From positions 1,649,001 through 1,713,000 of the forward strand of contig NZ_OX636706.1 in the NCBI RefSeq assembly GCF_951793255.1: 64,000 nt of DNA, in the 5' to 3' direction. The notes under the pieces were generated by a model that was not told the DNA's origin, searched no databases, and saw only the letters and a list, made by a program, of their open reading frames with translations. A program made the translations under genes and the position numbers. The stretch is from Desulfovibrio piger. GTDB lineage: Bacteria; Desulfobacterota; Desulfovibrionia; Desulfovibrionales; Desulfovibrionaceae. Shown in pieces: positions 59,931-64,000 of this stretch (the first letter of the stretch is position 1; each line of letters starts with the position of its first letter).

Positions 59931-61073
59931 TCACTCGTTGCCCTCGCTCCGGCTCTCGCTGACGGGCAGGGGCAGCAGCAGGCGGAACAGGGCCCCGCCT
60001 TCGGGACGGTTGGCCGCCGTGATCTGGCCGCCGCGACCGTGGGCAAGGCCCGTGGCCACGGAAAGGCCCAGGCCTGCGGCCCGGCCCGCCTGACGGTGGG
60101 TGGTGAAGAAGGGCTCGAAGATATGGGGCATGATGTCGTCAGCGATACCGGTACCGCTGTCGGCCACCGAAAGCTCGTACCAGGTGGTGCCGTCGTCATC
60201 GGCGGGCAGCAGCCGGGCGCCGATGTCCAGCGTGCCGCCCTCGGGCATGGCGTCCAGGGCATTCTCCACCAGATGCAGGCAGATCTGTTCCAGCTCCAGG
60301 GCGGAGCCCAGGGGACGGGGCGCGTCCTCGCCCCATTCCGGCGGGAAGTGCAGCCGGCAGGTCACCTTGAGGCTGTCCATGCGGCCCTGCAGCAGGGTCA
60401 GGACACGGGAGACCACGGCCTGCACGTCCATGGGCGCGCTGCGGGGGTCCAGGCCCACACCGGCCATGAGCAGCTTGCGGGTGATCTCGCGCACGCGCAT
60501 GCTCTGGGTCACGATGGCCTTGAGGGACTCGCGCAGGTCCTCGATGTCGGGCAGGGCCTCGGCCTCGGGGCTGTCCAGGCTGTCGCCCATGAGGCCCGCG
60601 GCCTGGACGATGATGTTCAGGGGGTTGTTGACTTCGTGGGCCACGCCTTCGGCGATGCGGCCCAGACTGCGCAGGCGGGCCTCTTCGGCCAGACGCCGGG
60701 CCTGGCGCCGGGATTCGGCCCGCTCCCGGGCCTTGCGGCATTCTTCCAGCACCGCATCCAGCGAGACGGGCTTGGCAAGCCAGTTGAGCGCGCCGCGCCG
60801 CATGGCCTTGACCGCCTGGCTCATCTCCGTGGCGCCGGAGAGCATGACCACATCGGGACGCGGTTCATGTTCCTGCAGGAGCTTGAGCAGGGAGACGCCG
60901 TCCATGCCCGGCAGGCAGACATCCAGGAAGACCAGATCCCATTCCTGCCGGGAGAGCATGCCCAGGGCCGTTTCCGCATCGCCGGCCACGGCAGCCTCGA
61001 TACCGCGCAGCTCCAGGCGCTGTGCCAGCGGTTCGGCAAAGGCCTGTTCGTCGTCGACGATGAGTACACGCAT
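59931..61073 (-). CDS. Receiver-histidine kinase hybrid
   Basis: 380 residues. An N-terminal receiver domain (1 to about 118) has DDE at the start and the phosphoacceptor in VFLDVCLPGMDG. A short coiled linker leads to a DHp domain with GRIAEGVAHEVNNPLNII (His acceptor) and a HATPase with LVENALDAMPEGG, VADSGTGI and GLGLSVATG. It has no membrane span, so it is cytosolic and probably senses through its receiver. It is last of five genes in this phosphorelay operon. Confidence 0.9.
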   Translation of the reverse strand: MRVLIVDDEQAFAEPLAQRLELRGIEAAVAGDAETALGMLSRQEWDLVFLDVCLPGMDGVSLLKLLQEHEPRPDVVMLSGATEMSQAVKAMRRGALNWLAKPVSLDAVLEECRKARERAESRRQARRLAEEARLRSLGRIAEGVAHEVNNPLNIIVQAAGLMGDSLDSPEAEALPDIEDLRESLKAIVTQSMRVREITRKLLMAGVGLDPRSAPMDVQAVVSRVLTLLQGRMDSLKVTCRLHFPPEWGEDAPRPLGSALELEQICLHLVENALDAMPEGGTLDIGARLLPADDDGTTWYELSVADSGTGIADDIMPHIFEPFFTTHRQAGRAAGLGLSVATGLAHGRGGQITAANRPEGGALFRLLLPLPVSESRSEGNE

Positions 61074-61177: not shown

Positions 61178-61651
61178 CTAAAGCTTGTGCTCGGCCAGGA
61201 GGTCTTTTTCGTTGAGGACATCCTGGGCGGCGTCAAAGTCGCCGCCTTCGGCCAGGCTGACGGCCACCATGGCGTTCTCCACCTTGTCGCGGTAGGCCAT
61301 GCGGATGCTGTTCAGCAGCTCGTCGATGTCCATGGGTTTCTTGAGGAAGTTGTAGGCGCCCATGCGGTAGGCCGTCTGTTCTTCGGCATCACCGCCGTGA
61401 CCGGTCAGGATGATGACCTGCACCTGGGGGTTGCTCTTCTTGACGCTGCGCAGCACTTCGAAACCGTCCATGCCGGGCATGCGCAGGTCCAGGACGATGA
61501 CGTCGGTGGGCTCTTCAACGGCTTTGAGGGCCTGCGGGCCGTCATAGGCCACGCGCGCTGAAAAACCGCGCATGGCAAGGCGCTCGGCAAGCGTGTCCAC
61601 AAACTGTTTTTCGTCGTCTACCAGCAGAATCTTGATCTCTTCCTTGCTCAT
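61178..61651 (-). CDS. Single-domain response regulator with C-terminal extension
   Basis: 157 residues from the ATG at 61651 (AAGGAG 6 bases upstream). Receiver domain (about 6-125) with VDDEK and the phosphoacceptor Asp in VIVLDLRMPGMDGFE, plus TGHGG and the Lys in FLKKPMD. The last 30 residues are an acidic helix with no DNA-binding or enzyme domain. It probably passes phosphate or binds a partner. Confidence 0.9.
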   Translation of the reverse strand: MSKEEIKILLVDDEKQFVDTLAERLAMRGFSARVAYDGPQALKAVEEPTDVIVLDLRMPGMDGFEVLRSVKKSNPQVQVIILTGHGGDAEEQTAYRMGAYNFLKKPMDIDELLNSIRMAYRDKVENAMVAVSLAEGGDFDAAQDVLNEKDLLAEHKL

Positions 61652-61692
61652 GCCATTCTCCTTCACCCGGTGATGCCGGGAAAAATGTCGTT

Positions 61693-62349
61693 CTAGTCTT
61701 CACTCCCGCAGGCGGAAATGGAGAGGAAAAAGCGCTGTGCCGGATCGCGCCAGGGCATCAGCAGGGCCTGCCAGCCGGGCCGGGGCCGGGCGTTGAGCAG
61801 GGGGCTGCCCGTCAGGGCCGCCAGGGCCATGTCGCGATTGGCGCCGTCGCAAACTTCGATGATGATGCCTTCCACCTTGTTCTGGCGACCGGCGGAAAAG
61901 CGGAGCTTCACCTGCCCGCCCACGGAGGCGCACAGGTCGAAGATGTCCAGCAGGGCACGCAGCACCGCCAGGGCGGGCACGGCGGACCATACGGGTTCTT
62001 CGCTGTCGGCAGATTCCAGCACCATCTGCACGGCGCGGGCCCGGCGGGCCGCCATGAGGCAGAAGGTGCTGGCCACACGCGCCAGGTCGCAGGGCGCGTT
62101 CTCGTTCTCGCTGTGGCTGACCTGGGCCAGGTACTCCATGCACTCGGCCAGAGCCGCGCCCCGCAGGATCTGCTGCTGGGCTTCCTTCAGGGCCTTGATG
62201 ACGCGCGGGTCGGCAGGCTTGTCGGCCCCGGCGGCCAGCTGCACCATGTCCTGCGCCAGTCCGGCGGATTCGCGGATCACGGCCAGCACGTTGCGCATGT
62301 CGTGCGTGGCCGAAGCCAGCAGACGTCCCATGCATTGCGAATCGGTCAT
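61693..62349 (-). CDS. Histidine-kinase-like protein with degenerate ATP domain
   Basis: 218 residues. The N-terminal helical hairpin has LLASATHDMRNVLAVIRES (H16), a DHp-like His box. The C-terminal half has an ATPase-like fold pattern (LRALLDIFDLCASVGGQV, IIIEVCDGANRD) but lacks the N-box Asn and the glycine G2 loop needed for ATP. This is the design of ChpT-type histidine phosphotransferases, so it may relay phosphate between the receivers on either side. The assignment as a phosphotransferase is inference. Confidence 0.6.
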   Translation of the reverse strand: MTDSQCMGRLLASATHDMRNVLAVIRESAGLAQDMVQLAAGADKPADPRVIKALKEAQQQILRGAALAECMEYLAQVSHSENENAPCDLARVASTFCLMAARRARAVQMVLESADSEEPVWSAVPALAVLRALLDIFDLCASVGGQVKLRFSAGRQNKVEGIIIEVCDGANRDMALAALTGSPLLNARPRPGWQALLMPWRDPAQRFFLSISACGSED

Positions 62350-62350
62350 G

Positions 62351-62761
62351 CTACGCCCCCCTGGCCTTGTCGCTGCCGGTGCCGCCGGAACGGGCCGCGG
62401 CTTCCAGCGTTTCCAGGAACATGCCCAGGCTCAGCGGCTTGGTCAGGCAGGCGAAGGCACTGGCCACGGGGCTGTCGCCGGAATCGTCCACGGAGTCATG
62501 CCCCGTGAGCACGATGACCGGCAGGCCGGGGTACTTCTGGCGCACCTGCTGGAGGACGGCGTCCCCGGTCATGCCGGGCATGAGCAGATCCACCACCATC
62601 ACGTCGGGCAGGGCCTCCGCGGCCGCCATCTCGTCCAGGGTGGTCAGGGCCGCCTTGCCGTCCAGGGCCACCCGTACTTCGATACCGCGCAGATCCAGAC
62701 GCTCGGCCAGGGTCTCCACGAATTCCTTCTCGTCATCGGCCAACAGTACACGCAGTGCCAT
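62351..62761 (-). CDS. Single-domain response regulator
   Basis: 136 residues. Receiver domain with ADDEKEF, phosphoacceptor in VMVVDLLMPGMTGD, TGHDS and the Lys in CLTKPLSL. There is no output domain. It is one base from the kinase upstream and one from the phosphotransferase-like gene, so all are co-translated or co-transcribed. Confidence 0.9.
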   Translation of the reverse strand: MALRVLLADDEKEFVETLAERLDLRGIEVRVALDGKAALTTLDEMAAAEALPDVMVVDLLMPGMTGDAVLQQVRQKYPGLPVIVLTGHDSVDDSGDSPVASAFACLTKPLSLGMFLETLEAAARSGGTGSDKARGA

Positions 62762-62762
62762 C

Positions 62763-64000
62763 TCAAGCCTCCACAGGACGTTCCGGCGGTGTAAGCGGCA
62801 GCGTGATGCTGACCGTCGTGCCCTTGCCTTCGGTGCTGTCCACGGTGATCTCGCCGCCGAGACGGCGCACGATACCGTAGGTGATAAACATGCCCAGGCC
62901 GTTGCCCTTCTCCTTCTTGGTGGAATAGAAGGGCTCGAAGATGTGCTTGATCACTTCCGGGCTCATCCCCTTGCCGTTGTCGGTGACGCGCACCAGCAGC
63001 CCGCCGTCGGCCATCCGGCTGCAGGCGATGTCCACCTTGCCGCCGTCAGGCACCGCATCCAGGGCATTGCCCATGATGTTGAGGAAGACCTGCTGCAGCT
63101 GGCCGCGGTCGGACACGATGTCCGGCAGGCCTTCGGCAAAGTCCGTGCCGATGGTCACGCCGCGGTTCTTGGCGCCGCGTTCCAGAAAGCCCATGGTCTC
63201 GGTCAGCACTTCGGGCACGCTCAGTTCCTGGCGGTTGGCCTCCATGCGCCGGGCAAAGCCCAGCAGACGGTGGGTGATGCCGCGGGCACGTTCCACGGTG
63301 CTCTCGATGGCCTCCAGCAGGCTGATGAGCCTGTCCTTGCGCTCGAAGTTGCCGCTCATGTGCAACAGGTCGAGACCAAGGCCCGCCTTTTCGTTGATGA
63401 CGGCCAGGGGGTTGTTGACCTCGTGGGCCACCCCGGCTGCCAGCCGGCCGATGGAGGAGAGCTTCTGGTTGTGTTCCATCTGGGCGAAGACCGCCACGCG
63501 GCGTTCGTCGCTGGCCTGCAGGCGTCCCACCAGATGCTTCATCAGCAGGTGCGAGACCAGCACGATGATGGCGATGCCGCCGCAGAAGACCAGCAGCAGC
63601 TCGCTGCGCAGGGCCGTCCAGGGTTTGTAGATGTCCAGGGTGGGCTTGACGGCCAGGAGCATGAAGTCCGTGCCCGCCAGGCTGGTATAGGCCACCATGA
63701 GATCCTGTCCGCTGTCGTCCTTCCAGGGCCGCACCGTGGTCTCGAAGGACTGGGGCGGCAGGGTCAGGGGCAGCTTGTCCAGCACCTTGCCGTAGAAACG
63801 GGAGTTGGTCTGGAGCACGCCCCGGCTGTCACAGAGGAAAGCGTCGGTATCCTGCATCAGGCCCACGGCCGCCACCAGGCGTTCCAGCCGGGAGGTGTCG
63901 ATGGTCACGCGCAGGGTCCATTCCCGGCCGCTCTCTTCCATGCGGTGCACGGCGATGACCATGTGCGGGAAGCCGCGCAGCCCCAGGAAGACGTCGCTAA
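62763..64000 (-). CDS. Sensor histidine kinase, N-terminus outside the window
   Basis: At least 412 codons; the frame runs open to base 64000 and reads SDVFLGLRGFPHM before the first internal Met (63962). The N-terminal part is an extracytoplasmic sensor (Cache-like, with REWTLRVTIDTSRLERLV and DAFLCDSRGVLQTNSRFYG), followed by a membrane span (LLLVFCGGIAIIVLVSHLL), DHp with GRLAAGVAHEVNNPLAVI and HATPase with IMGNALDAVPDGG, VTDNGKGM and GNGLGMFITYG. It is the likely input of the operon. Confidence 0.9.
   Translation of the reverse strand, partial: SDVFLGLRGFPHMVIAVHRMEESGREWTLRVTIDTSRLERLVAAVGLMQDTDAFLCDSRGVLQTNSRFYGKVLDKLPLTLPPQSFETTVRPWKDDSGQDLMVAYTSLAGTDFMLLAVKPTLDIYKPWTALRSELLLVFCGGIAIIVLVSHLLMKHLVGRLQASDERRVAVFAQMEHNQKLSSIGRLAAGVAHEVNNPLAVINEKAGLGLDLLHMSGNFERKDRLISLLEAIESTVERARGITHRLLGFARRMEANRQELSVPEVLTETMGFLERGAKNRGVTIGTDFAEGLPDIVSDRGQLQQVFLNIMGNALDAVPDGGKVDIACSRMADGGLLVRVTDNGKGMSPEVIKHIFEPFYSTKKEKGNGLGMFITYGIVRRLGGEITVDSTEGKGTTVSITLPLTPPERPVEA

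Follow-up and report, generated by a model that had tools for sequence, protein, structure and literature searches.

A small stand-alone DHp protein of Desulfovibrio piger is probably a histidine phosphotransferase that derives from a HisKA-type kinase, has lost the ATP site, and occupies the middle of a relay running from a dCache sensor kinase to a single-domain receiver (RR1), to histidine 16 (H16) of the DHp protein, and on to a second receiver (RR2). This reading is drawn from sequence comparison and structure prediction for a gene cassette that lies for the most part in the 64,000-nucleotide stretch of genomic DNA analysed here (the window). To our knowledge, the kinase-derived phosphotransferases, namely Spo0B, ChpT and PhyT, serve development, the cell cycle or stress responses. 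If many sulfate reducers possess one more, and apparently separate, family of this kind, encoded alongside its kinase and receivers, the route from kinase to relay protein would seem to have been taken again. In addition, the gene set is compact, such that each step of the proposed relay can be tested in vitro, and it points to a control circuit beside transporters in organisms that are important in the gut and in sediments.

Organisation of the locus

The genes of interest (Table 1) are ordered, from 5' to 3', dCache kinase, RR1, DHp protein, RR2 and a REC-HisKA-HATPase protein (REC-HK), followed by the gene for the GTPase Der. The kinase and RR1 genes are separated by 1 bp, as are the genes for RR1 and the DHp protein, with 26 bp between the DHp protein and RR2 genes and 104 bp before REC-HK. 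In extended coordinates, the dCache kinase gene spans 62763-64484 on the same strand and encodes a full-length protein of 573 aa, in which Pfam finds dCache_1 (47.4 bits), HisKA and HATPase_c, all above cut-off. The sequence-only reading of this DNA had described a protein at 61693-62349 with a DHp histidine, H16; the ORF is present at that position, on the minus strand, and encodes 218 aa with H16 inside the motif THDMRN. The same reading had placed this ORF between two lone receivers and two kinases, a layout that stands, but with the amendments that RR2 carries a C-terminal tail of ~40 residues (SLAEGGDFDAAQDVL), and that the second kinase itself carries a receiver domain.

Table 1. Features of the DHp cassette and its neighbour, in window coordinates
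Feature	Position	Strand	Remarks
Predicted histidine phosphotransferase, a stand-alone DHp protein with a degenerate, ATP-less CA domain, 218 aa	61693..62349	-	
H16 codon, predicted phospho-accepting histidine	62302..62304	-	Position calculated from the start of the ORF
RR1, single-domain receiver, 136 aa, predicted to be phosphorylated by the sensor kinase	62351..62761	-	Response_reg 7.8e-21
RR2, single-domain receiver, 162 aa, predicted to be phosphorylated by the DHp protein	61178..61666	-	Response_reg 6.9e-28
dCache sensor histidine kinase, C-terminal part in the window	62763..64000	-	Gene extends to 64484, beyond the window
REC-HisKA-HATPase protein (REC-HK), 380 aa, lineage-specific neighbour, unsure relay role	59931..61073	-	Pfam

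A kept histidine and a lost ATP site

When matches at E<=10 are listed, the only Pfam model found in the DHp protein is HisKA, at a sub-threshold 18.6 bits against a cut-off of 26.9, and HATPase_c, PF10090 (HPTransfase), the Spo0B family and HPt have no match. Across a family of 62 members, HisKA is matched by 57 (E<=1), and HATPase_c is matched weakly by one (9.4e-4). The DHp helix of the window protein is intact, with H16, D17 and N20 in the sequence HDMRN, and all 62 members have the histidine, the asparagine at +4 (N20), and a glutamate or aspartate at +1. Since 45 of the 62 members come from a genome scan whose pattern demands H[ED]..N, the histidine count was redone on unselected members. 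In 30 members from a motif-free profile search, representing the best loci of a search over 296 genomes of the phylum, the histidine, N+4 and the acid at +1 are each found in 30/30; in loci found by BLAST, the window protein and 29 relatives again have the histidine in 30/30. The closest named relatives of the DHp protein are Desulfovibrio piger records, at 99% identity.

Of 74 kinase cores, 71-74 have the expected residue at each position of the N, G1, F and G2 boxes; these cores comprise one core each from 72 of the 80 scan loci plus the two kinases of the window. Among the 62 family members, in contrast, the same positions have no conserved residue, as judged by position matching from one profile alignment, and the window protein is gapped at all three G2 positions when aligned with the kinases. 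The family profile aligns end to end with the cassette kinase cores (hhalign, 99.95%). Thus, the DHp histidine is kept and the ATP domain is degenerate, and on both points the sequence-only reading is borne out.

Predicted structure

An AlphaFold2 model of the DHp protein (pLDDT 91.8, pTM 0.88) consists of a long DHp hairpin, formed by helices 3-39 and 48-79, followed by a shortened CA-like domain. Among the matches listed by Foldseek, kinase cores rank first (HK853, 7.4e-8), and ChpT structures are found at rank 43 (4fpp, 5.8e-6) and rank 49 (4fmt). With VIA-align, the highest Z value among kinases is 10.1, compared with 8.2 for 4qpj_B, a ChpT complex (rmsd 5.6, 172 aligned residues); for this model the Z values are close together, and ChpT is not singled out. 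ChpT structures are among the matches, but the modelled fold resembles ordinary kinases at least as closely as it resembles ChpT. The folds of RetS and DivL are also among the matches of both programs, and no HPt or Spo0B structure is found among the matches listed (best 50, Foldseek and VIA-align).

Distribution of the family

A search of 61 genomes from the genus and order gives matches to the DHp protein in 34 of them (E<=0.001), some of these matches being to full kinases. Within the genus, the DHp protein is found in 17 of 37 genomes (E<1e-18), and the dCache kinase in 16 (E<1e-100), kinase matches near 1e-50 representing other kinases. None of the 37 has the cassette dCache kinase without the DHp protein, and in the sole genome with the DHp protein and without the kinase (G011), a contig end lies at this place. 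In a wider sample of the phylum, 54 of 296 genomes match at E<=5.5e-34 with frames of <=412 aa (counted by hand), a number that is a lower bound because weaker short-frame matches exist. Two of the 54 matches contain one internal stop.

The genome scan kept 80 loci, from 205 relatives in all. Sixty-seven of the 80 were viewed singly; the ORFs in them are short (198-350 aa) and carry the motif that the scan required. Seven of the 80 loci are titled as other phyla (Gemmatimonadota 5, Delongbacteria 1, Phycisphaera 1), and the remainder bear titles of sulfate reducers, Syntrophaceae, Deltaproteobacteria or, for a handful of loci, just Proteobacteria. In a tree of 137 rows, all 62 family rows form one clade (100/98) that is separate from the kinases, which are represented by 49 dCache kinases (94/87) and 26 REC-HKs; the tree is weakened by a small number of columns, by long branches and by a bootstrap that had not settled.

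Conservation of the cassette

The arrangement kinase-receiver-DHp-receiver recurs across the phylum. Of 122 distinct cassettes, 107 have an adjacent dCache kinase, 104 have a receiver upstream of the DHp gene, and 98 have one downstream; the 15, 18 and 24 cassettes that lack the respective neighbour include those at contig ends. The 30 unselected loci (3.1-3.7 kb) have a same-strand kinase in 29/30 cases and at least one receiver in 30/30. Because the same neighbours recur across a phylum, the position of the DHp protein is no chance arrangement.

When the kinase and DHp protein of each cassette are compared as a pair, the two are identical at the receiver-facing positions H+7, H+11 and H+15 in 87/91, 87/91 and 88/91 pairs, and at H+8 in 72/91. 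Judged from these alignments, descent alone may explain the interface residues that kinase and DHp protein have in common. The DHp helix, however, is not a plain copy of that of the kinase, because H+12 is identical in only 1/91 pairs (K in 88/91 kinases, S in 67/91 DHp proteins), and because the proline at H+5 that is found in 91/91 cassette kinases is found in 0/91 DHp proteins.

In the case of REC-HK, the gene follows the cassette only in some Desulfovibrionales loci (by eye), and 34 REC-HKs have N, Q or H at H+7 and Q, N or S at H+11, unlike the cassette kinase and DHp protein. For both reasons REC-HK is not counted as part of the core. The proposal that all five genes may make up one relay is accordingly only partly supported, as the conserved unit has four genes and the fifth encodes a lineage-specific kinase with a different receiver face.

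The flanking receivers

The phospho-accepting aspartate is retained in 103 of 104 upstream receivers and in 92 of 98 nearest downstream receivers, and the alpha-1 consensus is alike in the two groups, centring on F-V-x-T-L-A-E-R. The aromatic switch has been put forward as an idea for separating intermediate from terminal receivers (PMC9981736, in part). As a marker of relay position in this cassette, the switch residue (K-3) was rejected, as F or Y is found in 76/104 upstream and 86/97 downstream receivers, with no separation. The 28 of 104 upstream receivers without the aromatic residue have C or V at K-3, and include RR1 of the window. A C-terminal tail resembling A..FAEAG is recognised by pattern in 33/98 nearest downstream receivers versus 0/104 upstream.

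Other receiver forms are found at related loci. For instance, L084:7847-8371 and L086:2702-3703 encode pseudo-receivers, seemingly without the phospho-accepting aspartate (by eye), that occur alone or fused to a normal receiver. Fusions of a cytidylate-kinase-like domain to a receiver (PF13189 + PF00072) are found at L107:3566-4789 and L053:9365-10576, and such a fusion adjoins the cassette in several lineages.

A proposed relay and its alternatives

In the relay proposed here, the dCache kinase would autophosphorylate and hand the phosphoryl group to RR1. RR1~P would donate the group to H16 of the DHp protein, and H16~P would pass it onward to RR2, and perhaps also to unlinked regulators. For the DHp protein we infer dimerisation, phosphotransfer, the direction of transfer and an output. 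The sequence-only reading had suggested a multi-step phosphorelay, and, given the conserved cassette and the kept histidine, such a relay is likely with both flanking receivers, but a part in it for REC-HK, which lies outside the conserved unit, is unsure.

The main rival to this relay, though an unlikely one, is that the kinase-derived DHp protein is mainly a phosphatase that dephosphorylates RR1 and/or RR2, thereby resetting the output of the sensor kinase. The motif H[D/E]..N with asparagine at +4 is linked to the phosphatase activity of HisKA proteins and is kept in the family; by its sequence, the combination of the histidine, the +1 acid and N+4 would equally suit a receiver phosphatase. 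A pure phosphatase, however, can dispense with the histidine, as in EnvZ-type kinases, and here the histidine is kept in 30/30 unselected members and the gene is flanked by two phosphorylatable receivers. PhyP was at first read as a phosphatase, and was later shown to be the phosphotransferase PhyT (PMC5898713, in part).

It appears distinctly improbable that the protein is a pseudokinase in which H16 has no chemical role and which regulates the dCache kinase or the receivers by binding them. RetS and DivL are degenerate kinases that do work through binding, both folds are among the structural matches, and the profile alignment and tree make the DHp protein a paralogue of the cassette-type kinases, yet H16, the +1 acid and N20 have been kept while the catalytic boxes decayed, which is more than a binding role should require. 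Least credible of all, and very hard to sustain, is the idea that the protein remains a histidine kinase whose ATP site has diverged. The CA-like fold retained in the C-terminal domain of the model and the weak HATPase_c match in 1/62 members (9.4e-4) are consistent with such an enzyme, but all four ATP boxes are lost family-wide and HATPase_c is unmatched in the window protein, and assignment as a HisKA kinase with HATPase_c is rejected on these grounds.

Neighbouring genes and candidate outputs

The neighbouring genes offer some leads to the output of the proposed relay. In this genome, BLAST with receiver queries over the 16-kb stretch that surrounds the cassette finds the three receivers of the cassette and no other. 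The TauE gene is preceded by one for a LuxR-type receiver in six Desulfovibrio relatives (Pfam on three). The closest homologue in this genome, at C1:2850729-2851388, has 61% identity to that of a relative and lies 1.14 Mb away; a linked LuxR-type receiver was rejected as the output here, as the homologue is unlinked to the cassette. Elsewhere, some members of a set of six loci also encode a sodium:sulfate-type symporter, CBS and universal-stress proteins, and a PAS-sigma-54 activator (Pfam on examples). A PAS sigma-54 activator without a receiver is found upstream of the dCache kinase at L084:2977-4395 and L128:2854-4299 (Pfam).

Of 67 loci with flanks of 4.5 kb to either side, 38 encode a TauE/SafE permease, although related loci are not independent; as a rough baseline, TauE is found at 13 places in the 3.08-Mb genome (14 matches, two being halves of one gene). 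In this genome, the upstream TauE/SafE gene lies outside the window and is broken into two reading frames (L002:7978-9062; C1:1713978-1715062, minus strand). In the close relative G006, TauE/SafE is a single ORF of 363 aa, and the split may be real or an assembly error. The TauE, symporter and LuxR neighbours are treated as leads to the output, not as evidence for it. The 'nitrate cluster' DVU0251-DVU0245 likewise has a TauE permease together with kinase and receiver genes (PMC4001038, in part). This cluster was rejected as the same locus, as its remaining genes differ in the portions of PMC4001038 available.

A broader interpretation would see an ancient ATP-less DHp family as the hub of a Thermodesulfobacteriota relay, in which helical-tail receivers directly control oxyanion transporters, such as TauE/SafE, and the output is not a DNA-binding regulator; this extended scheme is speculative and rather doubtful.

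Relationship to known phosphotransferases

The closest proteins by sequence are HisKA kinases of the ZraS/AtoS/NtrB type, with ZraS (4.6e-12) and 3a0r (ThkA; 6.1e-12) matched in the PDB by the family profile. The DHp family differs from them in lacking the N, G1, F and G2 boxes, and it also lacks the H+5 proline of the cassette kinases. A monomeric HPt was rejected, as the HPt model is unmatched in the window protein (Pfam, E<=10).

The phosphotransferase PhyT/PhyP functions in the general stress response of Sphingomonas melonis, where phosphate passes from the single-domain receiver SdrG via a histidine to the final regulator; PhyT is anchored in the membrane and carries HRxxN, the motif of HWE/HisKA_2 proteins (PMC5898713, in part). 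The DHp protein resembles PhyT in being kinase-derived with a degenerate ATPase, but starts 15 residues ahead of the histidine and has a HisKA-type H[D/E]xxN motif. A PhyT-type (HWE/HisKA_2) assignment was rejected because there is no HRxxN: the window protein has HDMRN, and +1 is E or D in 62/62 family members and in 30/30 unselected ones.

In the case of ChpT, the likeness to the Caulobacter and Brucella proteins lies in a DHp hairpin with a phospho-accepting histidine, a CA-like fold without an ATP lid, and a similar length. The ChpT helix is kinked at Pro38, five residues past His33 (PMC3433190, in part), whereas the DHp family has no proline at H+5 (0/91). Furthermore, the DHp gene is clustered with a kinase and receivers, and the cluster lacks a CckA-type hybrid kinase or CtrA. 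Membership in the ChpT family was rejected, as PF10090 is unmatched in the window protein; at E<=1 the model is matched by 3 of the 62 family members (best 1.7e-4), and the single PF10090 match of the genome is in a frame of 839 aa at another place. Similarly, ChpT is not among the 26 PDB matches of the family profile at E<=1, all of which are named as kinases or sensor proteins. The description 'ChpT-like' in the sequence-only reading thus holds for the probable mode of action, with a kept DHp histidine and a degenerate ATP domain, but not for the family. The absence of a PF10090 match sets the window protein apart from ChpT and suggests a separate origin, the tree comprising the DHp family, dCache kinases and REC-HKs.

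In the sporulation relay of Bacillus, Spo0B is a DHp phosphotransferase that acts between the receivers Spo0F and Spo0A, with a kinase before Spo0F (PMC6136694, PMC5231405, both in part). The same order of a kinase ahead of the first of two receivers, with a DHp phosphotransferase between them, would apply to the cassette. In contrast to Spo0B, however, the DHp cassette genes together form a single operon-like cluster, with no known transcription factor at the end of the relay; membership was rejected, as the Spo0B Pfam family is unmatched in the window protein (E<=10).

A literature search conducted mostly outside the subscription journals found no description of the DHp family or cassette in the titles and opening lines of abstracts listed, and the portions available of PMC3333781, PMC4558063 and PMC10102598 do not mention the family. 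There is a fair probability that the DHp protein works like ChpT or Spo0B while being, by the tests made, a member of neither; its family would be a new one within a known type of protein, and its gene neighbourhood is conserved.
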